Below, in pieces: positions 8,632-64,000 of a stretch of 64,000 bases of DNA (position 1 is the first letter of the stretch; each line of letters opens with the position of its first letter). This stretch comes from Falciphora oryzae. Lineage: Eukaryota > Ascomycota > Sordariomycetes > Magnaporthales > Magnaporthaceae. The position numbers and the translations under genes are program-made. The notes under the pieces were generated by a model that ran no database searches, had not been told where the DNA came from, and saw only the letters and a list, made by a program, of their open reading frames with translations. The DNA is taken from assembly GCA_000733355.1 (NCBI GenBank), contig JNVV01000035.1, positions 5,994 through 69,993 on the forward strand, written 5' to 3'.

Positions 8632-9023
8632 TGTTCGTGGCACGCCGATATCGATATCAGCCGGTTGGGGTGAGAAGGCTTTGGTATATTCTGTGTATCC
8701 AAAGTCGTCTGTCTTCTAGAAACAACGGAAGGGCTCCTCGTGCGAGCCCTCTAGATACATATATCCCAATCACGGAAGCCGCGGGGTGCGGTCGTCCAAG
8801 GCCAGTCCCGGTGCCGGGCCTGACTTGCGACTTGCACCGCCTCCGTGCATGACCGGTGATCTCCGTGCATGACCCGTGATCACCGTTCATGACCGGTGGT
8901 CCCCATTGCCGGTCCCTCCGTGTTAGAGAGGCGGGGCCTCTCAGTCCCGGAGTCCCTAGTCATTGGGGATTCCCCTTGCCCGTGCTTCTACCTGTCGTGC
9001 GACCTCTTGCTGCCCTTCCAACA
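8632..9023 (-). repeat. Solo LTR of the Copia-B family (392 bp) inside Copia-A1
   Basis: On the plus strand it reads TGTTCGTGGC...TTCCAACA and is flanked by the direct repeat GTTAC (8627-8631 and 9024-9028). It is the reverse complement of the 392-bp LTR at 57060-57451. Comparing Copia-A1 with the empty site in Copia-A2 (near 35190) confirms both ends. It is the product of LTR-LTR recombination after a Copia-B insertion in the gag/protease region. It carries two TCGTGCGA sites (near 8737 and 8996) and three 20-bp tandem units. Confidence 0.95.
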
Positions 9024-9028
9024 GTTAC

Positions 9029-32601: not shown

Positions 32602-33434
32602 CTACCTTGTAAAGCCGTGACACTCTCGATACTCTCGAACCGTTTCCCAAAATCCTTTTACGGCCAGCCAAGCTCCACGCACGACCTGGGCGGGCTTCAC
32701 TCCGCCATTGATGAGGATGGAGCCGAGCAAGAGAGCAAACACGAGCGGTAAGGCCGTAGCGGGATACACCCAAAACTGTTCGTGGCCAGGCTGGTACTTG
32801 TCGGTCATGCTGAAAAGGCTGGCGACCCATGACAGCGGCACGAAGACGAGCGCGATATACGTCAGCCGCGTCGTATTGGCAGCTTCCACCAGCGAATGGC
32901 GCGCCTCGAGCAGCTGAACCATGGACGTAGCGACCGGGATCATCTGCTCGAGCGAGTGGTTATAATCCCGGAGCTGCGCGTCCACCTGGTTGATATCTTT
33001 GAGGACTAATTCCCAGCATCGCCGCCACTGCTTGGCTTGATCGCCGGTGTGCCCTCCCTCCACCTCCTCCTTAGCAAGCCAGTAGTTAACGAATTCGGCG
33101 AGGGTAAAGAGTTTGTACTGGCTTTGCTTGCACCGCCTCCTCCAGCGCTGGAGGTCGACCAGGTCGCTGTTGTGGAGGCGGTTGTGAACTTCCTGGAGCG
33201 AATACTCATAGTACTTGAGGTAGCGACTGGTCAAATGCGTATACATTACCCATTCTGCCAAGGCAATGCGGATCGGATAGTACCCAAAGGCCAGGACGAG
33301 ACTATAAAGCGGCGAAGATGCGAATCCAGGAGGCTGTTCGCGGCGGAGGTACCTGACCAAGCTGTGAAGCATAAAGCTCTGGGCCTCCTTAAGAACAGGG
33401 CCGATGTTTCCGGTTCTGCCAAAGCGAGAAAACG
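32602..33434 (-). pseudogene. CorA-like membrane protein, 3' (C-terminal) part
   Basis: The minus frame enters from Copia-A2 with FSRFGRTGNIGPVLKEAQSF and continues through helical segments (LVRYLRREQPPGFASSPLYS, YLKYYEYSLQEVHNRLHNSD). Two transmembrane helices follow: LTYIALVFVPLSWVASLFSM and, after TDKYQPGHEQF, WVYPATALPLVFALLLGSIL. It ends RECHGFTR. This two-helix C-terminus is that of CorA-like divalent-cation channel proteins. The metazoan/bacterial GMN signature is absent (SMTDKY at that place), as in many fungal CorA-like proteins, so Mg2+ transport is not assured. The reading frame joins exactly to the upstream part at 41824 once Copia-A2 and one copy of its TSD are removed. This half has no internal stop. 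Confidence 0.82.
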
Positions 33435-33684
33435 TGTCGCAAAGGATCAAGGGAGGTCCCCGGCCGGCACGGCCGGGGTCTGCATCACCACCCTCGTCGG
33501 CGTCGCAAATGCTCAATAAGCGGTTACAAAGCACTCGGCGACGCCGAGAGGGACTCTCCACTCCTACTACGCACTCATGTATAAAGACCCCGAGGGTCGT
33601 AGACCCTCGGGCGCTTTCCTATTAGTTCTTTAAAGGTAGAAATAAAGCTAAACGGTCTACTGCATGCACTTCTACTTTGCAATA
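33435..33684 (+). repeat. 5' LTR of Copia-A2 (250 bp)
   Basis: TGTCGCAAAGG...TTTGCAATA. It holds a TATAAA at 33580-33585 and three hairpins: CCCCGGCC/GGCCGGGG (33458-33478), CTCGGC/GCCGAG (33534-33548) and a perfect 10-bp stem CCCGAGGGTC/GACCCTCGGG (33589-33611) just downstream of the TATA box. Confidence 0.95.
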
Positions 33685-33700
33685 GTTATGAGCCCGGCGT
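33685..33700 (+). other. Primer-binding site of Copia-A2
   Basis: GTTATGAGCCCGGCG starts at the first base after the LTR and is complementary to the anticodon arm of initiator tRNA-Met. This implies priming by a tRNA fragment, as in copia and Ty5. Confidence 0.7.
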
Positions 33701-33904
33701 TTTGAACCCTTTTTTTTTTCGCATTTTAAATGCTGTATTGCAGTTGCCCCTTCTACCTCCGCTTACCTACCTTCATCAAACACACAAAGACCTTCACCAG
33801 TGCGCGGCAGGCCCGCGTAAAACACCCGTTCCACGCTTACGAGCCTACCGATTACCGACATTAAAGCTATCGCCACCTTCTTTTCGGACCACCACCATCA
33901 GCCT

Positions 33905-35260
33905 ATGTCGCCTCCACCAAAACCCCGGCGTTCCCCGAGCATTCCTTAAGACGTTTCCAGTGCGTTAAAAGCACCTACCATATCAAATAACGATGCGAGT
34001 TTGCTCCCTACGGGGATCCTGCAAGATAAGCACCAATGGCACACATAGTTTACGGTTTTCCGGCAAAACGCCCAGATGCTCGCTGTTTGGCATAAGGTTA
34101 ACCCTGATTTGCAGCTAGATATCGAGCAAGCGTACTTTAACCCTCCCACTTTAAAGCAAATCTAACAAAAGGACAGGGATAACACGCTCAAGGCGCACGA
34201 AATACGACTGCTCGTCTGGAAAAAGCTCACCCAAATCGAAAAAAACCAGCGCATTAAAAACTGGGGTAAGGAAGGACAGAAGGCTGGAAAGCCTCATCCC
34301 GAGCCAAAAAACCCGGTTTTTGCCACTTAAAACGAGCTTAACAAACGCTTTGTAAATGCGCAATAAGCATGGAAAACCAGCAATAAAGCGAGCGTTTCCG
34401 ATAAACAGCTTATGGCACTTACCAAATAGGTATCTACTTCTATCGACCGCTTTGTTCTCACCGAAGCTATGCAAAAAGCAAACATTAAAGGGTGGGCCTC
34501 TTTTAAAGGAACAGTTAAATGCTTACAGCTATTACTCGCTCCCAATACAACGCTCTCGAACGACTAGGTGATTGCGCAGTACAATAACGCCTTTAAAAAA
34601 GCCAAAAGCACGACGGACACCAACAAATAGTTCGTTAACTTCCGCTTCGCTTTCGGGCAGGCCCAGATCCACTAAATCCCTTAAATTATAAGTGCCAACG
34701 GCGCTTTGGAGTTCCTGGATGCCGTAAAGCGCTTCCAGGCCTTTTGGGCTAAGCGCCATACCGAAAACCTTGCAATCGGTGCCAGTAACAACACTTTTAA
34801 AACCCTAATTAACCAGTTCGGCTCACTTCAATACCGAGACTCCATTTGAAAAATCGGGGGCAAAAGGAACCCGGTTTATGCAACTTTAGGCGGAAGCTCG
34901 GCACCCTTTAACAAGCATTCGAAGCAAGGGAACGGAAGTTCCCAGCGCAACGGAAAATCTCAAAAAGGTAACGGCAAAACATACAATTGCCCGGCCAGTT
35001 ACAAAAATCACTTATAAAAGCCAAAGGGGTACTAAACCATACAGCACGCCCTTATAAGGTCGGCAATACGCGGTAAACCCCTTACCGAGTAAAAGGTTAA
35101 AGCGATTAAAAAGGAATTTGAAAAGCTACAATGGAAAGGCTTTAAAAAAACCCTGCTAGGGATTAATCGCTTCGCTAATTCCGATTAGGGGAAGCACTAA
35201 CAAAGTTCAGGAAGCAACCAAAACCAGCCCAAACCAAGCCATATTAACGCGGCAATCTTC
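33905..35260 (+). pseudogene. Copia-A2 gag pseudogene
   Basis: The ATG at 33905 is retained (MSPPPKPRRSPSIP, then TAA). The body includes SLLPTGILQDKHQWHT, FRQNAQMLAVWHKVNPDLQL, AHEIRLLVWKKLTQIE and SASVSDKQLMAL-like helical stretches. More than ten TAA and TAG interrupt it. A zinc knuckle was not found. Gag would package element RNA in particles. Confidence 0.75.
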
Positions 35261-38200
35261 GAAAACACTGGCAACGTCAATGCGGTGTACTTAACGATTA
35301 GCCCGGTGCATAGCGCGCACTAGTACAGCACGCTCCTAGATAACTGCGGTATAATACATTTGGTTAACTCCATTAACAAGCTGGACTTAAAATCCTTTAT
35401 ACCAAACGACGGCAACGAGACCGTAGAATGCGGTACCTAAACGCTCCCGATATTAGGCAAAGGAAAGCGCACTTTTAAAGGATCGCTTTTTGGCGACAAG
35501 GACCTAGTGCTCAACGACGTCGCATTTATGGATGGCTTTTACGTTAATATCATCTCCGAAGCAAAGCTTAGGGCTGCAAGCGTTTAATTTTATGGCCTAA
35601 ATTGCACTCTGCGCATGGGACCCCTGGACTCGAGCCTCCTCGTCAGGCAGTTGGAACGCAAAAGCAATGTTGTTTTTTTCAAATACAAGCACTCTTCCTC
35701 CTACAATCGTACGTTAAAAGCACTCGAACAGTCCTTACCAAAGCTCGTAATAGCTATACGCAGCAAATATTTTCGGCGAATGCGCGCCAATCCGACCTAG
35801 CGCCCTAGCATCGATTACACCAAACTTAAGGAAAATACGGCACATCTGTGGCACTTACGAAGTGGGCATTTAAATCAACAAGCACTCGAAGCCATAGTCT
35901 GGAGCGCTCGGAATGTACGGATTAAAGGGATACGACAAATCGAATGCGAAGACTGCGCAATAACGCATGCCAAAGCGCTCATTTCTTAACGCCGGATGGA
36001 CCCAGCCCCCAGGCCCTTTTGGAAGGTTTGGCTGGATTTATTCCACTTTCCATCCAACGGAAACAAGCAAAAGGTCCTTCTATTACTAGAAAACGATTTC
36101 AGTGGCAAGCTTTAGGGGTATACGATATCCGGCAAAAGTGCTAATAAACTTACGCCTTTGCTAATTAATTAGAAAGCCTGGGTCGCCCGTTAGTACGGTT
36201 TAAAAGTCGCCATTTTCCGGCATAATAACGAGCTAACTCTAATTGCGCACAAAGGGAAAACATAGTATTAAAAGTGGTGCGAATCTATGGGTATCGAGCT
36301 GGAGAACCTACCGCCGGATACTTACGAACCTAATAGCAAAATAAAGCGAGTAGGGCAAAACGCCGTTACACGCTCGATACGCATGCGACAAAGTGCCAAC
36401 CTCCCGGAGGATTTTTGGCCAAAGGCCGTTCACGCGGCTATCTGGCTTAAAAATATGAGCCCCTCGTCCTTTAAAGGCATACGCTTTCCTAACGAGGTTA
36501 TATTCGCTTGGTTCAAAGGCTATTTCCGTTATTATACCCTAAAGCTCGTTAAAGGGCTAAAAGCGGACTTACGCCCTAATTAGGACGGCATTTACGCCTA
36601 CGGGTGCCAAGCATACGTTTTCGATCCTTAACGAGCGAAAAATAACATACGCATAAAGTTTAAGGTGCAGCCGCGCGGGCACGTCGGATACCTAATTAGC
36701 TACAAAGCCTCCCATATTTACAGGATTTGGGTACCGAGCAAGGCACGCATTTTAGTATCCCGCGACGTGCGTTTTAATAAAGGAACCTTTTTTAAAGGGC
36801 TGGAAAAAGAACCTCCTGTTGCTCCGGAAGTATACGAGATGCTTTTAATAACAAACGAGCAAAACGAGCCTTTCCGGTTCCGAAAAGGATTTGCAAATGC
36901 ACTTGGCTTTTTGGAAACGGAAGCGCTAAAAGCAACCACCACCGTAACCGAGCATCCGGGTTAAAATTCGGGAGTGGAGGTGCTAGAAGAGATCGTTGAC
37001 GACCAACCTCCCGCAGAGGAGGTTACACGATTAGCCCAGAAAGTCGCGGAAGACGCCGTAGACGTGCGATGTTAGGCCGCGCAAAGAATCCCGACTCCAG
37101 ATGCTTTAAAAGGCAGCCAAACAAAGGAGCCGGTGCGTAGTTAGGAATTAGATAATGGCTTTAATAGCGGCCCCGGCGAAACAGGGGGTAGCCCTACCGA
37201 TTTGGGGGGTAACGAGGATAAGGCGCTAAGGGGGCGTTAGCGTTTGTTTTCTATAACGCGTTTCCTTTTATAATATTCGGATGCGCGGGAGCATTAACCG
37301 AGCATTTTAAAGCCTAACGAGGGCCCGGAAATCCGAGATATAATAGTGGTCCGAACCGATTAACTACTACCAGTTATTAAGGAATAATAGCAATTTTTCC
37401 CGCCCGCGCTATAATAACAAACGAATGCTTTGCGAGCACCGGCGCAAACGCGACCTGCTTTCCAAATGCCAACCGCTTAGTAGTCCGAAAGGGCTTTTAG
37501 GGCGGCGAGGAAACAAAAGCTAAAAGAGGAATAATTTTTAAAAAAAAAAGGCTAAATAACAAAAAAACCTTATTAATTACGTGTTCGCTACGCTAAACGG
37601 CAAGGAACCCGCGGATCGGCCCAGTGGAAAAAAAGAGCTTAAATAACGGTAAGATAACTTCTTTTGCACGTTTTTGCCTAATTACCAAAAAGCGGTAGCA
37701 AAAAGTTAAAAAGGCCACCGTCCCCTTCACGAAATCGTCGCGGCCTTAACCCTTAAAACGGCGGATAGGCTCAAATACCAGGCAGGCAAAAAGATATACA
37801 AAAACGCATTATAAAGCGTTCCAAAATCCTGGAAGGAGTTTAATAAGCACCCGTTAGGACCCTAATTCAAAAAAGCCGCACTAGCGGAAATGACGGGGTT
37901 TATAAAAAAAAGCATTTGGATTAAATTACCGAGGTCCGATACCTTTAGCCGAACGCTCGATATCAAATGGGTTTTTACCTACAAATTTAATAAAGACGGA
38001 TACTTTGATAAGTTTAAAGCAAAGGCAATTGTTAGGGGTAATCAGCAACCCTTAAACTCCCTAAAAAGCACCTACGCGGCGACACTGGCTGCGCGGACGT
38101 TCCGGATTATAATGGCGATTATAGCCTACTTCGATTTGGAAGCTTTACAAATGGATGTAAGCAACGCGTTCTTGTACGCAAAGCTCGGTCCAGATTACGA

Positions 38201-39385
38201 CCCAGTTTACGTTAAACTCCCACCCGGATTTGCGAAACCTGGGTACGTTACCCGCTTAAAAAAAGCCTTGTACGGGATAAGGGACTTTCCGTTACTTTAG
38301 TACAGGGAGTTAGCTAAAACCCTGCAAGAATTTGGCCTAAAGCGGCTGCAAACGAGCTTTGCCTTTTTATGGACGAAGCACGCTATATCTTCCTGCTCTT
38401 TTACGTTGACGATATCGTGCTTCTTTACCGTAAAAAGCACGCGAGCAAAGCGCGCCAAATGCTCGAAGGGCTTAGGGATAAATACGAAATACGCGAAAAA
38501 CCTTTGGAGTGGTTTTTAGGCATTAGGATCACGCGCAATAGGGAGGAACGTACAATTACCTTATTACACAACTCCTATATTAGCAAAATTGCCCGCCGCT
38601 TCAACCTCGACAACAAATCTACCTTCCCAAATACGCCAATGCCAGCCGGGGAGCTTACAAAGCATTTGGGCACGGTTACCGCGCAAAAGGTTTTAAGCTT
38701 TTAAAAGAAAGTAGGATTAATACTTTATACCGCCATTATAGTACGACCGGACGTAGCATAACCAGCTTTGGCGTTTTCTAAGCATTTAACTAACCCCTCG
38801 CTTGCGCACCACGATGCCGCGGATTAAGCTATTAGATATCTGGATGGGACGAGGTTCCTGGCTATTAAGTACGGCCACGGCCAGGAAACCAAGCATTTAA
38901 GCATTGCGGGAAACGCTTCCTACGCAGATGATCTAAAAACAAGGCACTTTTTAAAAGGGTTTATTATTTTTTTGTTTAGGGGGCCGGTTATTTGGAAGGC
39001 AGGGAAACAAAGCACCGTAATAACCTTAACCACTAAAGCAAAGCTTTTAACGCTCGCTAAAGTGGCTAAAGAGATTATGGCTTTAAAAAGGCTTTTTTGG
39101 GACGTGCAGCTAGAATTTGGCGAGCTTTAAAGGATTTTTTATAATAATAAGCAAACGATCCGTTTAGTGGTTTAGGATAACGCCCGGATAGCTACCGCGC
39201 TCCGGCACGTTAATATTTAAAACATATGGTTGCGTTAGGAGCATGCAAAAGGCTCGTTCGAAATGACGTATTTTGAAACCTCGCAAATGCCCGCTAACGG
39301 CTTAACAAAGGCCCTACTTAAGGCCAAGTTTGAGCATTTTAGGGCGCTCCTAAAACTGCATAACGTTATCCCTAAAATATCTTAA
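35261..39385 (+). pseudogene. Copia-A2 pol pseudogene: protease, integrase, RT, RNase H
   Basis: The protease active site region reads YSTLLDNCGIIHLVNS (about 35323-35370), replacing the usual DSG. The GAG-pre-integrase zinc region has WHLRSGHLNQQ and CEDC (35840-35960). The integrase C-terminal region (36287-36960) reads LPPDTYEPNSKIKRVGQNAV and QPRGHVGYLISYKASHIYRI. RT (37890-38704) has IKWVFTYKFNKDGYFDKFKA, ALQMDVSNAFLYAKLGP and an intact YVDD near 38407. RNase H ends AKFEHFRALLKLHNVIPKIS at 39385. TAA and TAG are frequent from 37130 to 37560 and in RNase H. Confidence 0.85.
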
Positions 39386-39680
39386 AAGCGCGTTTAAGCA
39401 TCGAATTTAGGCATTACGTTACGGAAATACGGCGAAAAGATAACGAGCACCCGGCAACCCAATATGCATTTCCTTTAAAAAAAAATAATAATAACAACGG
39501 AGGAATGGTGGCAGCGGCGGCAGCAAGAGATAAAAAACGGGCGTTGTAGCTTAAAAACGACGAATAGAAATAAAAAAACGGCCTTTATAGCCGCAAACGT
39601 CGTCCTCCTTTTCCTTTTCCTTTTCCCTATTCCCCTCCTCCTTTTCCCTCTCCTTTTTAAGCTTTTTAAAGCACGGGGGG

Positions 39681-40936
39681 CTAAATACCGCGCTTGCGGC
39701 GGTAATTAGCGCCTATAAAAGCGATGCCAGCTAGGAAGTCGTCGCCAAAACGACGATACCCGGCCAGTATTATATTTCCTACCGCGCTTCCCTTATCGTT
39801 ATTATCGTTATCCCGTCTCCTTTTTAGGCTTTGATTTCGAGGAGGAGCATCCCCTGTTTTGCGGGGACGTTTCGCGCGCACCTCCTCCTCCTCCGAGTCG
39901 CTTTCTTCCTGCGCGACTGTCTTTAAGTGACCGCGCGGATACGGCCTGATTAAATCGCGGACGATAGTGCGGAGTTTCCGAACCTCCGCCCTATCGTCAC
40001 GGGCGAAAGCCTTTCTAAGCAGGATAGCCCTGCTACGGAGAGTTTCGTCCGCAGGTAGAGGCTTACAAAAGTGACCCGCCGAGCACTGCCAACAACGAGG
40101 GGCTCTGCCGTCCCTGCGTTTGCGACGTATGGGACGGTCGGAGCAGAGCCCGCGGTACCCCGTTAGGTACGCACGGGTGCAGCCGTCGCACGGGACAGCC
40201 CGAAGGGTTGCCCCCTCGGGCATCCCGATAACGGTGCCCCCTTCGAGGGCAGGCCGGCGAAAACGGGAAATGGGAGCGCGAACGCGGCCGCGCGAAAACT
40301 ACAAAAAAAAGTTAGCATAAAAAGGGGGGTAAGGCTTAGAAAAAGCAATCGGGTGCGCTAAAAGCACTTAAACTAATAAGCTTATGCTTACGGAGCATAA
40401 AACAACACAAAACTTACCGGGGACGGGGGCTTACCCCGGCTTTGCCGGTTTGCCTAAAGCGATTACAAAATTTCGTCGACCTCCTCCTTCTCTTCCTCTT
40501 CTTCCTTCTCCTTTTTGCTATCTACGTCCGCCGGGCGGACCCTCCTTTTGTCGTTCACCCAATTAGGGACCGGAGAACGCTCCCTCCCGAACGAAAGGGA
40601 TATTCCCGGGGGAACGACGGAAGAGGGCCGTTTAACGGACGTGCTTCCAATAAGGGCCAGGGCCCTGGTGGCGACGGCGGCAGCGGCGGAGGGGACGAGG
40701 TCCGAGTACCTCGCCCTTTGCGGCGACGGCGCATCGGGCGGTAGGAGCGGGCGCCCGGATGGCAGCGGGCGGCGCGCGGGCGCGGGCACGGGCGGTGGCG
40801 GCGCCGGAGGCGCGGCAGGCGGCGGCGGTACGGCTGCTGCTATTGCTGTTATTGCTGTTGCTAATGCTGTAGTAGGCGGAGGCTGCGAGGCCTCCGCTTG
40901 CGAGGCCTGGAGAGCTAGCGCTAGGTTGTGATCCAA
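39681..40936 (-). pseudogene. Copia-A antisense gene: spliced, Cys-rich zinc-finger-like protein (two stops)
   Basis: Opposite to pol, between RNase H and the 3' LTR. Exon 1 is 40936-40418 (173 codons from a TTG; TAA lies just upstream, so the true start is uncertain). Exon 2 is 40298-39681 (205 codons plus stop). The intron 40417-40299 (119 nt) has donor GTAAGT, branch GCTAAC and acceptor TTTTTGTAG, and joins in phase 0. Exon 1 begins LDHNLALALQASQAEASQ (UIM-like), then Ala/Pro-rich, then an acidic EEEEEKEEVDE. Two stops near its end (TAA 40465, TAG 40459) fit mutated Gln codons. Exon 2 has Cys at about 210, 213, 225, 242, 245 and 251: C-x2-C-x11-C-x16-C-x2-C-x5-C (PCDGCTRAYLTGYRGLC, RCWQCSAGHFCKPLP). 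A basic/acidic region and a conserved tail follow. It recalls Cys-rich TE-linked fungal domains such as DUF3716; that family match is unverified. Confidence 0.7.
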
Positions 40937-41573
40937 ACGCTTTCTGCACGCTTAATATGGTTAACGCACTTTTAATACCACGATCCAAAAAGTGTGGAAC
41001 ACTTATTGCTTACGGGCTTGCGCCCGTTCCGCCGCCCTCTTTTATCGAAACTTGGTATTGCCAAATATTTGCAATAAGTTAGCATTAGGTGTTTTTTAAT
41101 TCGTCGCGCGTACGCGCGCGCGCGCTTAAAAACGCGGGAATAAGATGAATTTACGGTTATTTTAAGGTTTGGGCCCTAATAACGTACGAAAAGTTAGCTT
41201 GGGCTTACCGCCGGAAGGGTTAAGGGTATTACCACGTACAAATTGTTGGTTGTTACTAAAGAAAGGAGAAGAGAGAGACGCCCGGGCAAAAGCTAACGGT
41301 AGAGCCCTTTTTTGATATCGCGCAACCAATGGCAGGTACCGGGCGCGCACTAAAAGGGAAAGAGCACCCAGATCCTTACGGAGGGAAGGAACCCTTACGA
41401 AAGGCGCCGACCCTCTGGGCCAGGCTTACTAACGAGCACCCGGGGCCTCGGGTCAGGTTTAGAAAATATTAAAACGAGCACCTAATAAAGGGATAAAGAC
41501 GTTTGTGATACCTTTATTTTAGCTCTCCTTTATTTATTATAGCCGGTACCCTCCGGGCACTAACTGGGGGGTG
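40937..41573. other. Region between antisense gene and 3' LTR of Copia-A2
   Basis: Probably the promoter side of the antisense gene. It contains a (CG)n-like tract (about 41105-41124, CGCGCGTACGCGCGCGCGCG) and a G-rich tract (CTAACTGGGGGG) just before the LTR that may serve as the purine primer site. No other gene seen. Confidence 0.5.
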
Positions 41574-41823
41574 TGTCGCAAAGGATTAAGGGAGGTCCCC
41601 GGCCGTGCCGGCCGGGGTTTGCATCACCACCTTCGTCGGCGTCGCAAATGCTTAATAAGCGGTTACAGAGCACTTGGCGACGCCGAGAGGGACTTTCCAC
41701 TCCTACTGCGCACTTATGTATAAAGACCCCGAGGGTTTACGACCTTCGGGCGCTTTCCTATTAGTTCCTTAGAGGTAGAAATAAAGCCAAACGGTCTACT
41801 GCATGCACTTCTACTTTGCAATA
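41574..41823 (+). repeat. 3' LTR of Copia-A2 (250 bp)
   Basis: Same length as the 5' LTR, differing by transitions (for example GGTCGTAGACC to GGTTTACGACC-type changes in the hairpin). It is followed by the TSD AAACG at 41824-41828. Confidence 0.95.
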
Positions 41824-47100: not shown

Positions 47101-48053
47101 ACCACTCGGCTTTGCTATTTGCGCCAAAAAGGAGTGTGATTTGGAAATTATGGCGTAATAAGCTTTTAACTTACATTTTATTGCTATCACAAATGGATTT
47201 GGATTAGAATGCGTGTTTGCAAACTTTCGAAAAGCATAGCGAGTACGTTAATTCGGTCGCTTTTTCGCCGGACGGTCAAAGGCTCGCGTCGGCCTCCCAC
47301 GACAAAACCGTCAAGCTTTGGGACGCGGCGACGGGCGCGTGCGTTACGACGCTCAAAGGGCATGGCGATTAGGTCCATTCGGTCGCTTTCTCGCCGGACG
47401 GCCAAAGGCTCGCGTCGGCCTCCCACGACAAGACCGTCAAGCTTTGGGACGCGGCGACGGGCGCGTGCGTCACGACGCTTAAAAAGCATAGCAACTCGGT
47501 CCGTTCGGTCGCTTTCTCGCCGGACGGCCAAAGGCTCGCGTCGGCCTCCGACGACAACACCGTCAAGCTCTGGGACGCGGCGACGGGCGCGTGCGTCACG
47601 ACGCTTAAAAGGCATGGCGACTGCGTTGAATCGGTCGCTTTCTCGCCAGACGGCCAAAAGCTCGCGTCGGCCTCCCGCGATAACACCGTTAAACTCTGGG
47701 ACGCGGTCGCTTTTTCGCCGGACGGCCAAAGGCTCGCGTCGGCCTCCGGCGACAAAACCGTCAAGCTCTGGGACGCGGCGACGGGCGCGTGCGTCACGAC
47801 GTTCGAAGGGCACAGCAGCTCGGTCTTCTCGGTCGCTTTCTCGCCGGACGGCCAAAGGCTCGCGTCGGCCTCCCTCGACAAAACCGTTAAACTTTGGGAC
47901 GCGGCGACGGGCGCGTACGTTACGACGTTTAAAGGGCATGGCGCTTGTATCTATTCGGTCGCTTTCTCGCCAAACGGCCAAAAGCTCGCGTCGGCCTCCG
48001 GCGACAAAACCGTTAAGCTCTGGGACGCGGCGACGGGCGCGTGCGTTACAACG
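44155..48053 (+). pseudogene. NLR pseudogene, part 1: RelA/SpoT-like domain, NACHT, WD40 repeats 1-7
   Basis: The ATG at 44155 (MALPLPSRLARQTGTEKEVE). Exon 1 to 45194 encodes a RelA/SpoT-like fold: HDLVGLRIV (Asp 129), YRVGINLEYGAYGG, and FEIQVASL (Glu 209, Gln 211), the E-x-Q motif of nucleotide pyrophosphotransferases. The intron 45195-45348 has GTATGT, CTAAC and CATCAG. Exon 2 has Walker [10 protein letters not shown] (about 45549), Walker B FAIVVDALDECD (about 45842), helical ARC2-like segments, and, after a frameshift near 47000-47040, WD40 repeats. Stops are TAA or TAG (44215, 44515, 44593, 44671, 45391 and others). Fungal NLRs sense non-self; the N-terminal domain is the effector, NACHT oligomerises, and WD40 binds ligand. 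Interrupted at 48053 by Gypsy-2 and continued at 54627. Confidence 0.87.
47235..48053 (+). repeat. Near-identical WD40 repeats, 126-bp unit
   Basis: Units share [37 protein letters not shown]. Seven VAFSP starts precede the Gypsy-2 insertion and one follows it. The fourth and fifth are fused by an internal deletion at about 47704. Differences cluster after the GH pair and at SAS-x-D-x-T. Confidence 0.92.
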
Positions 48054-48565
48054 TGTAACAAACGGCGGCCTCTTTAGGGAAAGGAGGTCACGTCTAAAGG
48101 GAAAAGGGGGATCTCAAAGGTTCAGCAACTTAATAATCTGGTTTGTGCAAAGCTTGGCAAGCTAATAATAACAAAAAACAAGAAACGATTGCTTGGCCTT
48201 CGAACTCCCTTCATAAGGGGTCCTGCAGGCCCTTTTTATGCACAGCCTCCCAGCCACCCCTCGGCTGCCGTCGGCAGAGTCTCTTCCTCCATAATGCCCG
48301 TCCGGGCTGGCTGTGCTTTGGTGCGTTATAGTTTGGAACAACATGCTACTAACCCTTTGGTTTGGAACAACATGCCACTAACCCTTTGGTTTGGAACAAC
48401 ATGCCACTGATCCTTTGGTTTAAAACAACATGCCACTAACCTCCTGGTTTGGAACAACATGCCACTCTAGCGTACGCCCTTTTAGCTACTACCGGAGTCC
48501 CCCTTTGAAGCTACCGGTGGCGGTCCTTAAGGCTGCTAATCGTGGCTGCGGATCGGGGTGTTACA
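48054..48565 (-). repeat. 3' LTR of Gypsy-2 (512 bp)
   Basis: Plus-strand ends TGTAACAAACGG...GGGGTGTTACA. Contains tandem 29-bp units (GTTTGGAACAACATGCCACT core) at 48331, 48360, 48389 and 48418, plus a partial one at 48447: one unit more than the 5' LTR, exactly explaining the 29-bp length difference. Confidence 0.95.
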
Positions 48566-48816
48566 ACTATCCCCCTCCTAAAAAGGCTATCCTCGGCCTC
48601 CAACCTTCTCCTCCTTCTTCCTAGTGCAACGACAAATCTTCGTAAACTCGCAAGGGCGTTAACCGTCTCTTTCCCTTCGCTTAGGGGTGGGCGCTGGTCT
48701 CTAGTAAAACCTTTGGAAAAGGATAACCAATTTGGCGATTTTCAAGGCTCCTCTTCATTGCTTGGCTCCACGTCCTGGAGCTCGCGGATCTCTTGGTTCC
48801 TCCGACCTCGGGCCTT

Positions 48817-51800
48817 TTAAAAGGCTCGCACTTTCGCGGGTGCGTTTTGGAAGTGCTCCTCTGGTTTCCAAATGTTATACTCTGCCGGCCAGTCCTTCCA
48901 TTTGACCAGGTAGTACTTCTTGCCCTTGATGTAGCCCTCGTCTCGTACCTTTTCGACTTCCCATTCGTTTTGGTCGTTTTCGTACTCGGGCATAGGCAGC
49001 GGCACTTCGTCTCCTTATTTTCTAGCAGTGTACCGCTCGAGGTATTGCATAGGGAAAACGTCGTGCAAACGGCGGTGGTGTTCGGGAAGTGCCAATCGGT
49101 AGGCCTGCTAACCGATGCGTTCGGTAATCCGAAAAGGGCCGATCTATTTGGGTACTAACTTTTTGTTTTTCAACCGCAGGTTTTTCGTGGATAACTTTAC
49201 CAAATCTCCAACTGCGAACTGTATAAGGGTATGGTTTTTATTATAGTACTTAGCTGACCGTTCCTGTGCTTGCAGCAACGTTTCCTTAAGTTCTTTACGC
49301 ATTACGTAAAGCCGTTCGATACGGTTCCTTACTGCGGGTACCCTCCCTTTAGGGATATCGTCCGCGATATTAATCCGCATTTCGCAATCCGATCCGTATA
49401 AGAAGTAGAATGGCGAATGCCCTGTGGTAAAGTTCCTGCTATTGTTATAAGCGTACGCTGCTAATGGTAGCAGTAATGCTTAGGAATTTTCCGAACTAGC
49501 GCAGTAGTTGCGGAAGTAATTTTCGATTACACGATTTAAAACTTCCGTTTGCCCGTCCGTTTAAAGATGGTAGGCGGTCGACATGCGTCTTTTGATGATT
49601 TGGTATTTGCACATTTTTTCCCAAAAGGTACTAGTAATACGGCTATCCCGATCGCTAACGATGCTTTTAGGAATGCCGAATACGCATTCGATACGCTTGA
49701 AAAACAGTTTTGCGAACTATCCGGCGCTTATATCCGCTCGTGTAAGGATAAGCACTACGTATTTGGTTAACCGGCACACGACGACGAAAATCGCGTTAAA
49801 AGCCTGACCACTCGCCGTCCTGCTTTTAAGTAGGCCAGTTACCCAATCTAAAAAGATTTCTTTTATAAGCTATCCGTTTTTTAGCGGTAGCAGGGGTTTA
49901 AGCTTACCGTAGGGCTTGTAACGATAAATCGCCTTCCTTTAGCACTAAAAGCACGATGCTACATATGCAATAACATCCCTTTTAACCCCATCCCACCAAA
50001 AAAAGCGCTGGATTAAATCTAAGGTTTTAGCCACGCCCCAATAACCGGCTCCTGGAAAATCGTAAAATTGTTTCAAAATCTCGGTCTTTAAGGCCTCGTT
50101 TGCAGGGACATAAACCTGGTTTCCCCGGAAAATCAACTCGTTACCGTCAGCTAGGTGGAAGCACGATGCTCCTCGCTACCAAAGCGTCGTTTTAATATCT
50201 CGGTGCGGTGCGGTATATTTCGCGTTAGGTACTAGCAAGCGGGGCTTCTTGACTTCTATCAGCCTTTTAAGCAAATTTATGCTCGCCGGATCCCGCTTTT
50301 GTACGTCCCCAATCCATTTCCTTAGCAACGTTGGGATCCCCTCAAGGGAGTCCGATGCGTTGCTCTCAAGCCAATTTAAAGCGGTACGTGCTTCCTAGCG
50401 AGTAACAAATTGCATTTGTAGGGCATGGATAACCCTAAAGGTGTTTGAATCGTTGGCTAACGTAAGTTGTGCCAAACGTATGCTATCCCGCTCGCTTCGC
50501 CGGTTAGAAACAAAGTTTCTGGGGGATCGCTCGTTGGGTGCGCTTTTTGCGCTCACTGGCTAGGGAAGCTTATTAGGCGTCACTCCTTCGGCAATGTCCT
50601 TTACTACGTACTATTCATAACCCAGCACGTCTTTCCGACCCATTTTATTAGATAGCGTCGGCAAAAGCTTTTTAACGAAAATCTCCTATCCTTCCTCTTA
50701 ACCGTCCATATAATCCGGTTAACGAAATGGAGCGTCCGCCGGGTTCAGGGACCCTGGCCGGTACTTGATCTCGAAGTCGTACGGCGCCAACTGTAGTAGC
50801 CAGCGTGCCTAACGTCCGTTCAAACGCTTTTGCTTCATAAAAGCCTTCAGGTTCTCATAATCCGAAAATACCTTTATAGTTTGCGCTCCTTCGAAGTAAT
50901 GTCGCCAATAGCGAAAACTTCCCACTATTGCGAAAAGTTCCTTATCGTACACAAGGTACCGGATTTCGGCCCCTTTAAACTTCTAGGACCAAAAGGCTAC
51001 AGGGTGCCACTAGTCGCCGTGCTTTTGCAACAAAATGCCTGCCTTGGCAAAGTCGGAAGCATCCGTTTCCAACCGCAAAAGTAAACGCGGGTCGTAGTGC
51101 CGTAGTACTAGCGCGGTTATAAAGGCGTTAATTAGGTCTTCGAACGCTTGCTGCTATAATTCCTGCCAGTAATAGCCTATCTAGTCTAGCTTGCGTCCGT
51201 TCTTCATCCCTTGCAAAAGGTCGTACAAAGGCTTCGCCATGCGGGAAAAGCCGTAAATAAATCGTCGGTAAAAGTTGCAAAATCTAATAAAAACTTAAAT
51301 ATCTCTGTACGTGCGAAGTAGGTGGTTAATCCATTCGCGAACGACCTGGACACGCGCAGGGTCCATTTTAAGCCCTTCGGTATTAACGATAAAACCTAGG
51401 AACTTAAGTTCCTGCTAGAAAAAGGTGCACTTTTTCGGGTTAGCGTAAAGCTCGAAAGCGCGAAATCGATCCAAAACCAACTCTAGGTGGTGCTAGTATT
51501 CCTCCTCGCTATTGGAATAAATAAAGATATCGTTCAGATAAACGATAACGAAATCGTCCACTAAGCCTCGCAAAACCCGGTTAATATAGCTTTAAAACGA
51601 TGCTAGGGCGTTGGTAAGCCTGAAAAGTAGCACGAGGTACTCGTAATGCCCGTACTTGGTACGGAACGCGGTTTTCCACTCGTCGCCCTTTTTAATGCGA
51701 AATCGATAATAGGCGTTAACGAGGTCGATTTTAGAAAAGCATTTGGCACCGTTCAACCGGTCGAGCATTTCCCCAATAAATGGAAGGGGTGCTCTATTCT

Positions 51801-57059: not shown

Positions 57060-57451
57060 TGTTGGAAGGGCAGCAAAAGGTCGCACGACAGGTAGAAGCA
57101 CGGGCAAGGGGAATCCCCAATGACTAGGGACTCCGGGACTGAAAGGCCCCGCCTCTCTAACACGGAGGGACCGGCAATGGGGACCACCGGTCATGAACGG
57201 TGATCACGGGTCATGCACGGAAATCACCGGTCATGCACGGAGGCGGTGCAAGTCGCAAGTTAGGCCCGGCACCGGGACTGGCTTTGGACGACCGCACCCC
57301 GCGGCTTCCGTAATTGGGATATATGTATTTAAAGGGCTCGCACGAGGAGCCCTTCCGTTGTTTCTAAAAGACAAACGACTTTGGATACACAAAATATACC
57401 AAAGCCTTTTCACCCCAACCGGCTGATATCGATATCGGCGTGCCACGAACA
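57060..57451 (+). repeat. 5' LTR of Copia-B (392 bp)
   Basis: TGTTGGAAGG...CCACGAACA. Contains TCGCACGA near 57081 and 57335, and three 20-bp tandem units with the core CGGTCATGCACGG (about 57186-57241). A possible TATA (TATTTAAAG) is near 57326. Confidence 0.93.
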
Positions 57452-57826
57452 CTGATTAGTGGGTGGTTACAACCCACAGATTGGCAACGTGAAGAGACGG
57501 TTCGTACTGGTTGACGAGGTTGTGAATTCGCCTCGTGCTATCAGTCCCGTGCTACTGCCTAAGCAACTTTCCCCTATGAACGGCAATCGGAATTAGGGGA
57601 AAGGAACTTGGACGGGTTTACTAACCTTTCGTACGAACGACAGCCGATTAAAAAACGGAGGCCTAGCTCGTGCGGAGAGGGAAGTGAATCGCGCTCCGTT
57701 GCGCACACCAGCTTTCTAATATTTTCATTTTTTTTTTCCTATTTAACATTTCATTTCGTTTTTCCCCCTACCTTTTTATTACACCATTTTTTTACCTTAC
57801 ACCCTCGTACGATCACCATATCAGGT

Positions 57827-60800
57827 GAAGACGAGACCCCAGACACACCCGTCGCCGGACCGGCGGGAATATCGCATAAAGGTCATCCTGGCAGGACTTC
57901 TTAGGATTGGTACAAAAAGATCGCCGAAAGGACAAACATCCCCTTGTTAATATGGCGCAAATACGTCGACCCCGAACGCTGGGAAAACGACGTCGACCCA
58001 ACTCAGCCATTTTCGGTTAACGAAATTACAACCTATTTCGCACGATCGGTCGCGGAAGCTATTTGGATGTTTATTAAAAGCAAAGCGCTACGTCAAACCT
58101 TTCGAAAGGAGTTCGCCGGATGGACATACGACCTATTTAACCAAATCGGTCGTACGTTCAAAAAGCGGATGGACCAACTTTTGATGGAAGATGGGACCCA
58201 TATCCTAAGAGGAACAGTAACGGCCAGGTTTATGCGAGTATTGGACCTTACATTTCCAAACACTCCGTACGAGACACCCACCTTACAGCTAGCGCAACCA
58301 GCACGTCCATCCCGGACATTACAATTTGGACAACAAGCATCCTCGCACGATACAGCCCCAGCTCGGCCAGCCGTCACTCCGGCTAGGGCAGTCCCGATAG
58401 CAATCCTTACCGTGGAAGTAAAACAGCTCCATAACAATACGGATTTCGTGCGGGAACAAACACAAATGTTTAGGATTATCCCACTAGGAGCACGTACGAT
58501 ACAGGAAGTTTGGAACTTCCCACAGCTCCCGGAAGATTAAACCCTTCGCATGACCATCCCCCCGATGGAATATAACCTGCCCCCGAAGCTGCCGGTATAT
58601 AGCTACCCGCTGGAGCCGAATAAGATCTTAGCTTTCCAAAAGGGATGGAAAACGGACCGGAACTACACCGGCAAACCGTACGACATCCTGTTCGACAAAG
58701 TAAGGATTTTCATCGGCTATTGTTAACGATTCCAGATCGAAGAAAACCAGTACCACGCTATTTTCCCCGATATCTTATTAGGCCGTGCGGAAAATTTTTA
58801 TATTAACCATATCGGACCCGGAAAGCGATAGGACGAAATGTATAAGCTCCTCGATCTTTATTTTAATTCGAAAATTAACTATACGCTTTATTGGATAGAT
58901 TGGACGTCGACGACGTTCGTGCGGATGCGCCAAACCCATTTAAATAAAACATTGCCTAAGGTGCTGGAAACGATACTAGATAAATTTTAGCTCGTACAAA
59001 AAGCTTTAGGTAAAAGCTACCAAAGGGAAAGTGCCCTCCACACGGTCGTTATTTAAGTATGCCGTGGAGTGCCGGAGTTCGAAATCGCACTTTTTACCCA
59101 AAAGCTAACGTGCGAAGCTTTGTTCGCAGACCTCCGGGTAGCATTATAGGTGACGATGGATCGTACGAGTAGAACCCAGTTCCTGTTGGAGGAAGGACCG
59201 CACGACGCTAACTATACGGACCGACGGTACCATAACAATAACAAACCCCGGACGGGCTAAGGCGGCAACTTCCGGATAGGCGGCGGCGGCAACTACCGGC
59301 CAAATAGCAACTTCCAATATCGCACGAAGTTACGCTGCTATATGTGCAAAAAAGAAGGATGCTGGTTAACGAAGCACCTACGTAAAGAACAGGAGGGTGC
59401 GAAATAACGGTACCTTTAAGCGTGCGAAAACCTGGGTAACGAAAGAAATAATTTCGAAGCATTCCTTTAAAACCACGAAGGCTTACCACTATCGTACGAT
59501 AAGGAGGAAAATGAATAAGTTCGAGCACTACTGATGCAATACCTCCAGGACTATGCCTACCTTTATCGCGCGATTAGCGAGGACATTTACTAAACCAGTT
59601 TAAGCGAAGCGTTGGACCAGTTCGTACTGCACAACTAATATAGTACGATTTACTAAAGCGAGCTTTGGGACACCGGCGCCGCACGAGTTTTTACAGTCGG
59701 AAAATGCCAGGTGGAGGCATACTTAAAAAAAAACCCCGTGCGAAAATCGATTGGACGCCGGGATTAACGGAAGTAAAATTTGGAAGAAACAATATGGAAA
59801 CCTCTATCGGTACGATGCGGATGGAAAACCCCCTCGGGGAAGTTACCTACCACATTTTAAACTCCCAGACCCCATTTCTGTTTTGCTTGCACGACGCCGA
59901 TAAATTGAAATGTTATTTCAATAACGTCGACGATAATATCGTGCGAAAGGACGGAACAACTATTCCTATAATTAGGAAATAGGGGCACCTATTTTTTAAC
60001 GTAGGTAGTGCGGAAGCAGTAGCATTCCTAACGGAAAGAAAGCTTAGGAAACTCCATCGAAAGTTCGGACACCCTCGTACGGAGCGCCTCCATCGACTTT
60101 TAAAAAAAGCAAAACATTCCGACGTAAAGGAAAAAATCCTAGAGGAGATTGGCAAAGTGTGCTACCACTGCCAAACATACGACCCGGCCCCCTAACGGTT
60201 TAAGTTTTCGATTAAAAACAATTGCGAATTTAATTACGAAATCGTTATTGACATCGTATATTTGGGAGGGAAAAACGCACTGCACGTTATCGATGCAGCA
60301 ATATCCTTCCAAATTGCGACGTTCGTACGATCACTATTAGCCTAAAACGTATGGAACGCCTTTTGCAAATGCTGGATTTTTGCTTACTAAAGGCTATTAG
60401 ATACCATTTCGCACGACCTTGGCACGAACTTTTCGTCGGAAGTATTCCGCAACTACGTTAAGGTGGTAGGGGTGTCGTGTAAAAAAATGCCAATGGAAGC
60501 CCATTGGGCTGTCGGGAAAATCGAACGAGCGCACCAACCTTTTAGGAAAGCGTACGATATCCTAAAAGAAGAACTTGGATATTGTACGGATAACGAAACA
60601 TTGTTGCAAATGGCAATTAAAGCATTAAACGACATAGCAGGACCTAACGGCCTCGTGCCAACCCTGCTGGTTTTTGGTGCCTACCCCCGGATTAACCAAG
60701 ATTCCGCTCCGTCCCCAGATATCGTACGAAAAGCAAAAGCAGTCCAAAAGGTAATGAGAATGTTGCGAAGTATCCGTGCGGAAATCGAGGTCAGCCGAGC

Positions 60801-62808
60801 ACTAAACACCCGGAACGGACCTCGCACGCACGACCTATTGCAACTTCCCCTCGGCAGCGAAGTTTTCGTTTGGAAAGAAAAAAAGGGCTGGACCGGACCG
60901 CACGTCCTTCAAGCAACCAACCAATCCAATGTTACCGTTTTTACAAACAGCGGACCAAAGGTATTCCGGCTAATATAAGCTAAACCATACATCCGTAATC
61001 CAAAAAAGGAAAACGATAAACCAAATTTATCGCACGAAGCCCCAAAAGAAATGGATAATAAGCCAGACCCATCGCACGAAGCTCCCGAAGCAGCAAAAGC
61101 TACCGCCTAATTTGACCCGGTTATTCCCCCTAAACGAGGCAGGGGAAGACCGAGGAAAGACGCACAGCTAATAGCATACCTGACTACCAAAGAGAAAAGT
61201 GACTGGGAACTGGCCCTATCACTTCGTGCGGAGGGAAAAATCACTACATTAGGAGAGCCGTTCGAAGAGTCCGACGCGGTAGAGATTAATAACCTTATCG
61301 CACGAAGTATTATTAAAATCGTTAAGTACGATCCAAACAAGCACGCCGGATTCCGGATATGGGATACCCGTTTCGTACGAGAAGTGAAAAGGAAAACCTC
61401 GGACCATCCGTACGAAAAAACGAGGATGGTTGCGCAAGGGTTTAACGATTCCGAAAAGGAGGAACTTTTTACCCAGGCTCCAACCATCCAACGGATGAGC
61501 CAGCGCTTACTTTTTAACATCGGCCCGACTTTAATGGAAAAGTTAGGAGCATCGTGCGAAGTAAGGGACATCACCCAAACTTATATCCAATTTAAAGAAA
61601 AGCTCGCACGAACAGTTATCGCAAACCTGCCAAAGGAAATCCGCCACAAGTACCTAACGGATTCCATTTTATGGATATAAAGGCCATTATACGGAATGGC
61701 AAAATCTGGAACCTATTGGTGGAAAATTTACTATTCCCACTATCGCGAAGCATTGGGAATGGAAGCTTTATCGTACGACCTTTGCCTACTATTTATAGCA
61801 ACCGGACGATAAAAGTTTGGCATTACGGGCATACAAACAAATGATACGTTTAGCTTTGTAACGACAGCATTTTCGGACCTGGAGGAGGAAAAGCTGTACG
61901 AAACTAACTTCCAAGCTAAACCGAAAACGTTCCTTTCGTACGATAACTATTTGGAATTTAACGGATGCAAATTCGAACTCCAAAGAAAAAACATCACGGT
62001 CGTGCAAAAAGGACAGCTTAACCAACTCCAGCTGGTAGAACCAGAGGCCAAGGACGCAGCACAACAGTATATTGCCCAGCGCGCACGAGGTGCATATATA
62101 GCAACCATTTGTTAACCAGAGGCAGCGTACGACCTATTTGTAGCAGCCCAGGTGAATAACCCAAGCAAAGAAGACATCGACAAATTGAACCAGCGGCTTT
62201 AATAGCAGATAGACAACCTATAACGAGGACTTAACTACCTTCCTTTGGACCTAGCTCGCACGAAGCTATTCATTTTTGCAAATGGATTATTCGCTAACAA
62301 TAAAAACCTGATATTACAATTTAGCTATTTGATCGTACTAGCAAAGGAAATAGGTCGTGCGGAAACTTTATTTTTTATCTAAAGGAATATCATCCATTGG
62401 TTATTTACCAAATACAAGCGAGTGACGAAAAGCGTGCTAGCAAGCGAATTATACGGTATAACAATTGGCTTTAATAGCGGCTTCGCATTTAGCAGCACAT
62501 TAGAACGGATTATTTTTACTTTAAATATCGTACGCATCCCGACTATTATTTACACAAATTCCAAATTATTGTACGAATGCTTGGTAAAATTAGGTAATAC
62601 GACGGAAAAAAAATTAATAATCGATATTATGTTTTTCCGGGAATCGTACGAACGAAAGGAAATTTTTAAAATCCGCTAAATCGATAGACGAAATAACCTT
62701 ACTAACGCCCTAACAAAAAAAAATCCGAACGAAACATTAACAACTTTGGTGTTAATAAATCGTACGACGATCAAGGTGGAAGCTTATGTTAAAAAAGGAG
62801 AGAAATAA
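57827..62808 (+). pseudogene. Copia-B gag-pol pseudogene
   Basis: A single frame with TAA and TAG only. Gag: WRKYVDPERWENDVDPTQPF, a Gly/Asn-rich patch, and a variant zinc knuckle RCYMCKKEGCWLTKH (about 59335-59380). Protease: LWDTGAARVF (about 59668). Integrase: KLHRKFGHPRTERLHR with CYHC, then IDIVYLGG, SHDLGTNF and PMEAHWAVGKIERAH (D, D, E). RT: RMVAQGFNDSEKEELFTQAP, RDITQTYIQF and RPLYGMAKSGTYWW. RNase H: the catalytic Asp of the expected FVDASFANN is Asn (FANGLFANN), and TDSKSL has become TNSKLL; ASELYG is retained. The start lies in or before the SGEDETPDTPV region and is not fixed. TAA ends it at 62806-62808. Confidence 0.88.
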
Positions 62809-62983
62809 AATTAACGAGAAGAAAGATTTCCTTTGTTAGGTACAGTATTTGGCTTCGCACAACTCCAGTCCTTTCCGACCCAAACTCCGAAAAAAAAAAG
62901 AAAAGACCCAGTAAAGCAACGCACGATAAAAACCCCTTTCCCTTATCCTATACTTAAAGAAAAAAAAGAACATTACCGCACGA

Positions 62984-63670
62984 TCAATCCTCGATTATAA
63001 TCACCTTACGACCCAGACCCGAACCAGCAAAGCCAAAGGAAGGAAAACGTTTCTGCACCGCACGACCACCATTACTACTACCAAAACCATTATTATTATC
63101 GCCACGGTTCGAACCAGCAACAGACGAACCGGGAGAGACAGTCCCCGCACGAGCATGTCCACATCTGCTCCCATGGCTTTGCCAAATGCAGCTCGAGCAG
63201 GCACCAGCTTGGTATCCTCGAAGGCGCACGCAGCGTGCGAAGCGCGGTACCGAGTTGGAGTTGCCGACCTTTAAGGGCAACGACGATAAGGAGTTCCGCG
63301 AAAATGGATTAAAACCGCACGGAAGTAGGACTCGCGTCGTACGATCCGGGCAACCAGATCGAAAGCACCGGCTTCGGTCGGGATATCCATCCGGACTTCG
63401 ATATCAACGGACGGCAAAGCATAAAGCGCACGCTTTTCGTCCTGCAAGTTTGAAGAAAAAGAGGTTAGCTGCGTACGATAAAGAAAAAGAGCCAGGGAAG
63501 GTGATACACACATTGATAGCGAGCGCGGCCATAAACGCACGATTGCCAGGCGAGCCGGTAGGCAAATGGAGCCAGCGGGCACTTTGCTCGTCGGTGCGGA
63601 TAATGAGCATGCCGAAAACCGAAGGAAAAACGACCGCCTAAACGGCAAGCTGAGCGGGCACAAGAGCCAT
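62984..63670 (-). pseudogene. Copia-B antisense gene: spliced, Cys-rich protein (one stop, one frameshift)
   Basis: ATG at 63670 (MALVPAQLAV, TAG, then AVVFPSVFGMLIIRTDEQSA). Exon 1 ends at 63512. The intron 63511-63442 (70 nt) has GTGTGT, branch GCTAAC and acceptor TTGCAG. Exon 2 starts at 63441 in phase 0 with DEKRALYALPSVDIEVRMDI and IVRRESYFRAVLIHFRGTPY. A one-base shift near 63273 leads to SVPRFARCVRLRGYQAGACS and SCIWQSHGSRCGHARAG, Cys pattern C-x10-C-x2-C-x8-C, then a Gly/Asn-rich tail ending GRKVIIIED at TGA 62984. Placement between pol and the 3' LTR, opposite strand, Cys-rich core and intron all parallel the Copia-A antisense gene. It recalls TE-linked Cys-rich fungal families such as DUF3716; unverified. 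Confidence 0.65.
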
Positions 63671-64000
63671 CGTGCGAGCCGAAAGAGAAAGAGCCCGAAG
63701 AAGGTGGTGGAATCTTTAACTGATAGTTGAAAGGAAAAGAGAGTTTGAAGGTCGCGCGATGAGAGGTCGCGCGATCGGAAAAAACGAGTTTGTGGTTATG
63801 GTTATGGTTGTTATTGTGGTTGTATCGCACGGAAAGAAAAGATCAAAAAGGAGGAAAGGAAGGGACGCCTTTTATCCCTACGAATGGGGAAAGAAGGCGG
63901 GCCTCGCACAAAGCAAGCAACTGCTTTTTGTGTGAAGCTATTCACAGCTTAACCAAAAAAGCCAACGCACACCTTTAACCACCTCAGCACAACTTCCTAC
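63671..64000. other. Copia-B sequence between antisense gene and the off-window 3' LTR
   Basis: Likely the 5' flank of the antisense gene. Contains two unmutated TCGCGCGA sites (near 63752 and 63769) and repeated GGTTATG/TTGTGGTT words. No LTR start (TGTTGGAAGG) is reached. Confidence 0.5.

Follow-up and report, generated by a model that had tools for sequence, protein, structure and literature searches.

A dense CGYRCG array in the Copia-B retrotransposon of Falciphora oryzae, with an antisense cysteine-rich gene as its candidate reader

The retrotransposon Copia-B was analysed in a 64,000-nucleotide stretch of Falciphora oryzae DNA (contig JNVV01000035.1; C35:5994-69993 of a genome of 50.2 Mb in 123 contigs, the one genome analysed), which is referred to as the window. 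Copia-B carries the word CGYRCG about once per 100 bp, in coding and noncoding DNA, together with a six-cysteine (Cys6) gene in antisense orientation. The word is at background in related elements, and a sister family, C, has an array of another word, GATC, and an antisense Cys6 gene of its own. The words are tentatively interpreted here as sites at which a sequence-specific protein binds DNA, most probably the DUF3716-type Cys6 zinc protein encoded on the antisense strand of Copia-B itself; we favour this reading with a confidence somewhat short of even.

In an earlier note on this DNA, Copia-B was placed at 57630..63830. This extent was corrected: the element runs from 57060 to beyond the window end, and its 3' long terminal repeat (LTR) starts at the position equal to 64282. 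From there, 128 bases of the 3' LTR were readable before the masked part of the genome sets in at 64410. The features of Copia-B in the window are as follows.

57060..57451, forward strand: 5' LTR of Copia-B; 97% match to 8632-9024 and 98% to the 128 readable bases of the 3' LTR
57082 and 57339: CGCACG sites in the 5' LTR
57331..57354, forward strand: LTR hairpin directly after a TATA-like stretch; holds CTCGCACGAG
57941..59500, forward strand: gag-like region with 15 sites; limits approximate
59501..62800, forward strand: pol with 30 sites and many stops of the type made by repeat-induced point mutation (RIP)
62984..63830, reverse strand: antisense gene between pol and the 3' LTR, split over several frames here; limits approximate
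63158..63244, reverse strand: cysteine-rich DUF3716 (PF12511) domain, second half only, in one frame
57082..63826, either strand: CGYRCG array with the consensus YCGYACGA, about one site per 100 bp, evenly spread
8632..9024, reverse strand: Copia-B solo LTR containing two TCGYRCGA sites; 97% to the 5' LTR

The 62 CGYRCG words previously counted by eye in 57630-63830 were confirmed exactly, and 26 TCGYRCGA were determined in the same interval. The corresponding means of 1000 dinucleotide shuffles were 7.4 (maximum 18) and 0.44 (maximum 3), respectively. The centre variants CGCACG, CGTACG, CGTGCG and CGCGCG occurred 23, 22, 14 and 3 times. Each of the remaining twelve CGNNCG words was found 0-5 times, the enrichment being limited to the YR centre. 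Since these other words are rare, the array is not a CpG effect, and CpG richness was ruled out as its cause.

The statement that codon usage is insufficient to produce the array was borne out in L032 (C61), the least mutated copy among those read, with an open pol frame of 896 codons (2691 nt). The pol of L032 contained 24 sites compared with a mean of 4.9 and a maximum of 13 in 1000 synonymous-codon shuffles, and the sites fell in all three frames, as had been claimed, in the proportion 7/10/7. In the antisense frame of L032, 12 CGYRCG were found against a mean of 3.2 and a maximum of 9. The short RNase H piece had 3 sites (mean 0.46, maximum 3), a count which the shuffles reach. Codon usage as the cause was rejected by these shuffles. 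Noncoding DNA, the LTR and the antisense gene also carried sites, and the solo LTR had the two previously reported.

Sites occurred at 5-6 per kb in the leader and the 5' LTR and at 9-10 per kb in the gag-like region and pol; the 5 kb before the element had 0.8 per kb. Sixteen sites were located in 62801-64281, and a single one in the readable part (128 bases) of the 3' LTR. The spacing was more even than random, with a coefficient of variation of 0.54 versus 0.97, and none of 20000 uniform placements was as low; gaps shorter than 40 bases numbered 7 where 19.8 were expected. Nothing notable was found in the helical phasing of the sites. The logo of 47 sites of L032 was YCGYACGA, and a weak signal reached about 3 bases beyond it. 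The flanks of different sites showed no relation to one another, with identities averaging 0.28 and at most 0.58 over 1035 pairs. In 5.1 kb, the only tandem arrays that Tandem Repeats Finder detected were two short ones, consisting of GGTTGT and of a 20-base repeat of the LTR. On these two grounds, tandem expansion was rejected as the source of the array. Retrieved Copia-B loci, which span about 0.19 Mb of the 50.2 Mb, contained 193 of the 858 genomic copies of TCGTACGA.

The genome search with 1 kb of Copia-B pol resulted in 26 matches, the window copy included. Twenty stretches were retrieved, and 19 of them (excluding the window's neighbour) were aligned, several being partial; the aligned parts were 78-91% identical to the window copy. 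By tblastn, the L032 pol was 85% identical to window 59722-62397. In Pfam, it matched gag_pre-integrs (E 1.2e-4) and then RVT_2 (E 5e-5), both under the curated cut-off, and gave no match to the integrase core; the integrase and RNase H of Copia-B pol are putative and placed by position. The two LTRs, compared in the 128 unmasked bases, and the order of gag_pre-integrs before RVT_2 assign Copia-B, at the sequence level, to the Copia (Pseudoviridae-type) LTR retrotransposons. The comparison of its pol with viral contigs gave 3 pattern matches and no relative among them. In L035 (C55:24100-33500), a Copia-B LTR was inserted inside the pol of another Copia-B copy, and Copia-B matches crowded on C55, C4 and C113 (several).

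The antisense gene of Copia-B proved to be real and encodes the cysteine-rich DUF3716 domain. The open reading frame (ORF) at 62984-63280 of the window (reverse strand) matched DUF3716 with 24.8 bits, the curated cut-off being 22. The antisense frame of L032, 281 aa, matched the family over its length with 31.1 bits. In the genome, PF12511 had 20 matches, five of which lie within Copia-B copies by coordinates (C61, C55 twice, C17 and C35). Five other matches (C34:305517, C34:306134, C40:259, C89:93432 and C94:32058) covered profile positions 12-58 in a 75-aa frame, four with equal scores, which suggests another repeated element carrying the domain.

The L032 pol was also used in a tblastn search, resulting in at least 83 matches (51 of 158 candidates scored). 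Besides Copia-B copies, families at 31-48% pol identity were among the matches listed. Four stretches of relatives were read: L047 (C3:519600-525000, 48%), L048 (C69, 45%), L049 (C12) and L050 (C51, 2 kb). L047 and L048 form one family (C), with 93% identity in the 2 kb of pol compared, and L049 and L050 another (D), 84% alike, both copies being RIPped. CGYRCG was at background in the relatives, with 3 in the 5.4 kb of L047, 2 in L048 and 5 in L049, and none of the 16 Copia-B sites in the compared 2 kb of pol was shared with C or D.

In contrast to this background, L047 contained 90 GATC in 5.4 kb versus 30.6 in dinucleotide shuffles (z 10.7). Its pol pieces had 38 and 19 GATC, where synonymous-codon shuffles gave means of 17.3 (maximum 27, n=1000) and 10.4 (maximum 18), respectively, and downstream of pol 27 were found against 9.4 (maximum 18, n=300). 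Pair distances of 8/9, 23/24 and 31/32 occurred 12, 10 and 10 times compared with about 3 each, values reached by 0, 0.0008 and 0.001 of 5000 uniform placements, respectively. When all distances were scanned, the count of 12 in the largest class exceeded the 99th percentile (11) but not the maximum (13) of 3000 placements. Some of the 23/24 pairs of L047 resembled, by eye, GATCAG...ACCA...GATC. L048, though RIPped, had 46 GATC versus 15.8 expected and kept 43 of the 90 L047 sites, 9 being unaligned. As a control, GATC was counted in twelve 5-kb tiles of the window, resulting in 5-23 with 6.7-16.2 expected.

The RIP of L048 was almost one-sided: 300 C to T and 24 G to A changes, which affected 42% of CpA and 33% of CpT. 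The C to T changes inside and outside GATC were 20/27 versus 148/375 at CpA (P 0.0009) and 9/15 versus 77/249 at CpT (P 0.025), a comparison in which the 5' base is uncontrolled and from which nothing is concluded.

Both L047 and L048 carry a Cys6 gene, antisense and downstream of pol. This gene had 47 genome matches at E up to 1, with no Copia-B place among them. At least 31 of these matches are antisense to a listed pol match and located no more than 3 kb to its 3' side; the other 16 pair with no listed pol match. The antisense proteins of Copia-B and C were not alignable by BLAST (E 0.17, outside the Cys region), though their pol aligns. The cysteine spacing was CX3C-X11-C-X10-CX2C-X8-C in the B protein and CX2C-X13-C-X9-CX2C-X5-C in the C protein. 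The zinc cluster Zn(II)2Cys6 has the pattern CX2CX6CX5-12CX2CX6-8C; the B and C proteins have a like order with other spacing and fall outside this class. In an alignment of nine sequences, five being other DUF3716 domains of the genome, the six-Cys order was common to DUF3716, B, C and D.

Other Copia elements were read for comparison. In D, a weak excess of GATC was found (25 versus 10.2 and 11 versus 5.2), and word scans of this family gave no strong word. The window itself contains a comparator:

33434..41823, forward strand: comparator Copia element with LTRs at 33434-33684 and 41573-41823, 93% alike; without array
40065..40190, reverse strand: antisense Cys6 motif of the comparator

The comparator had 18 CGYRCG and 13 GATC in 8.4 kb. 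In the word scan of 35000-41000, the best general word was purine-rich with z 6.2, just above the 5.2 of the shuffles, and the best palindrome reached 5.4. No array was seen around the Copia reverse transcriptase at 5205-5903, where the best palindromic word had 4 copies and z 6.3, and no Cys6 match was obtained there in a pattern scan which also misses the broken gene of Copia-B. The CGYRCG array is absent from the relatives and the other Copia elements read, in support of the earlier note. At 45000-50000 of the window, GTCGN8CGAC and AGGCN8GCCT were present 6 times each versus 0.1-0.2 expected, possibly in a repeat.

The LTR hairpin of Copia-B was also compared between the families. The presumed LTR of C, read without its mate, has a hairpin with GATCTTCGATC and the same outer bases at about position 5000 of the L047 reverse complement. 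The hairpins are AAAGGG-CTCGCACGAGGAG-CCCTTCC in B and AAAGGGG-ATCTTCGATC-CCCTTCC in C, with folding energies of -14.1 and -13.6 kcal/mol, respectively. Because the outer bases are shared and the words differ, it may be suggested that one word replaced another at the same hairpin place, this being suggestive only and concerning one place. The comparator LTR (33434-33684) also has, by eye, a hairpin after a TATA-like stretch with family-specific sequence.

According to the reading favoured here, the dense and even sites would enable the antisense protein to cover its family's DNA and to spare host genes. This coating would counter silencing or otherwise control the chromatin of the element, in the way that VANC acts for VANDAL transposons. 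Both orientations and the palindromic form occur among the Copia-B sites, which argues for double-stranded DNA as the target. The antisense protein as the reader of the word is given the same guarded preference as the reading as a whole; the protein would bind zinc and DNA, and its purpose may be anti-silencing. The idea of a VANC-like system is strengthened by the different array and the own antisense Cys6 gene of the sister family. The two families would differ in word and protein alike, with CGYRCG and DUF3716 in B and GATC, often paired, and another Cys6 in C. It is possible, though doubtful, that each Copia family of this fungus has a private palindromic address word over its full length, coding DNA included, and an antisense Cys6 reader, both of them replaced together when the families split. 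Such a system of self-recognition and anti-silencing in retrotransposons would account for the long-unexplained antisense genes of LTR elements.

Several results weigh against this reading. Four families have an antisense Cys6 gene, and two of them have an array; D has the weak GATC excess only and the comparator none. Gene and array are therefore not always together, since the comparator has the Cys6 motif without array. The GATC family rests mainly on the single copy L047, L048 being a RIPped relative. For palindromic words with small counts, z values of up to 9.3 (6 versus 0.1) were obtained in ordinary tiles of the window, so that z alone is no proof. The antisense ORFs of L047 and L048 had no Pfam match to DUF3716 and share the six-Cys order only; the D piece scanned, which excluded the Cys part of D, reached no DUF3716 in Pfam either. 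The residues at motif codons were not significantly less conserved against C/D than others (25/62 versus 394/810, P 0.24; 15/46 versus 247/558, P 0.16). Genome-wide, TCGTACGA was hardly commoner than its reversed control, 858 versus 735. The earlier expectation that the sites are conserved above their neighbours failed: among the decayed Copia-B copies, CGYRCG was kept in 799 of 937 cells (85%), no better than other CGNNCG classes (97/117, 119/134 and 39/48), with no sign of present selection. No function for DUF3716 was found in the literature from 2015 on, and a PDB sequence search with the antisense proteins gave no meaningful relative (two hits with E 1.8 and 4.5, and none in the other search).

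The strongest alternative, though an unlikely one, is that the array exploits a host DNA-binding protein, a transcription or chromatin factor, for expression or insulation, while the antisense gene does otherwise. The near-palindromic TCG-N2-CGA resembles the inverted half-sites of fungal zinc cluster factors, such as the AflR site TCGN5CGA, and the comparator demonstrates that gene and array are separable. A host factor is harder to reconcile with the use of different words by sister families of related pol and with sites spread evenly over coding DNA rather than clustered at promoters.

Steering of integration is considered improbable. By this account, a protein which tethers or repels the integration complex would either direct the element into its own copies, which would serve as a safe haven, or keep it away from them. 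The insertion in L035 and the crowding on C55, C4 and C113 are in accordance with it, but nesting was detected in one case only, and transposons usually crowd in RIPped regions.

A similarly small chance is given to an array with no present function, which would be left over from a past bias in composition, from a preference for certain codons or from an earlier arms race. The decay of the copies and the ordinary retention of the sites are what a relic would show. The synonymous-codon and dinucleotide controls fail widely to reproduce the array, and a cause is needed for the even spacing and for the different words of sister families.

Action of the word in RNA, in packaging, export or reverse transcription, is slightly less probable still. 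The word-bearing hairpin of B lies near the probable RNA 5' end, with the own word of C in the corresponding hairpin, and on the sense strand of L032 CGCACG exceeded CGTGCG (24 to 10, P 0.024). The occurrence of both orientations, the 12 perfect CGTACG palindromes among the 47 sites of L032 and the perfectly palindromic GATC are in turn as expected for double-stranded DNA.

The mutational history of the sites was determined from the aligned copies. Substitutions among Copia-B copies were nearly all transitions (12861 of 13176). The C to T rates were 31% before A, 26% before T and 7-14% elsewhere, mirrored by G to A; the mutation pattern is RIP-like, at CpT as well as CpA. The earlier note had proposed that RIP turned one ancestral TCGCACGA into the palindrome and so explained nearly all variants. 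This was upheld insofar as many CGCACG and CGTGCG sites (67 sites compared) become CGTACG in some copies, and not as the source of nearly all variants. At each of the 22 window CGTACG sites compared, 11-17 other copies were aligned. A full CGCACG or CGTGCG counterpart was found elsewhere for four (59162, 61937, 62529 and 62761), and for 18 in no aligned copy. TA was the sole centre in all aligned copies at 17 sites, and site 61409 had a single partial TG form in other copies. L032 has 24 CGCACG, 12 CGTACG and 10 CGTGCG. Because 17 of the 22 palindromes are TA-only and L032 holds all three forms, the Copia-B ancestor most likely already had all three. An array made by RIP on one ancestral TCGCACGA is thus very improbable and stands for individual sites only: RIP makes C to T, so the two flanking CpG are beyond its reach.

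An antisense gene accompanied by a dense family-specific array was found in two of four families. If the protein binds the word, self-recognition of the VANC type would have evolved independently in fungal retrotransposons, with an unrelated protein and with sites within coding sequence. The word change between sister families would then offer a natural series in which a DNA-binding domain coevolves with its site.

Among known systems, the DNA uptake sequences of Neisseria and Haemophilus are also short words which run through coding DNA in all frames and serve as a self mark. They differ in being bacterial, genome-wide and for transformation, and have no relation to Copia-B. LTR elements are known to carry antisense genes, so far without an explanation; for the plant cases their function is stated as unknown (PMC7264820), and brtn of Boty is a fungal case, named in PMC8365987. 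These genes have the same place and orientation as the extra gene of Copia-B; the available portions of their descriptions name no word array, DUF3716 or Cys6. In the openly accessible literature, neither a link of an LTR-element antisense gene to a word array nor word arrays in fungal Copia were found.

The VANC/VANDAL system of Arabidopsis comprises Mutator-like DNA transposons in which each family has a dense short word bound by its own protein, and related families use other words (PMC5735166). The VANDAL word is the 9-base YAGTATTAY, in one orientation, mainly noncoding and spread by tandem repeats. As in VANDAL, the Copia-B word is dense in its own family and rare elsewhere among the elements read, and binding by the antisense protein would complete the likeness. 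In contrast, Copia-B is an LTR retrotransposon, its word is near-palindromic and lies in coding DNA in all frames, its candidate reader is an antisense Cys6 protein, and the word is not spread by tandem repeats in noncoding DNA. Pfam scans of the antisense and pol frames gave only Copia domains, DUF3716 and sub-threshold noise and no domain of VANC type, with no direct VANC comparison made. Copia-B is accordingly not counted as a member of VANC/VANDAL, and VANC is the nearest known system by analogy.

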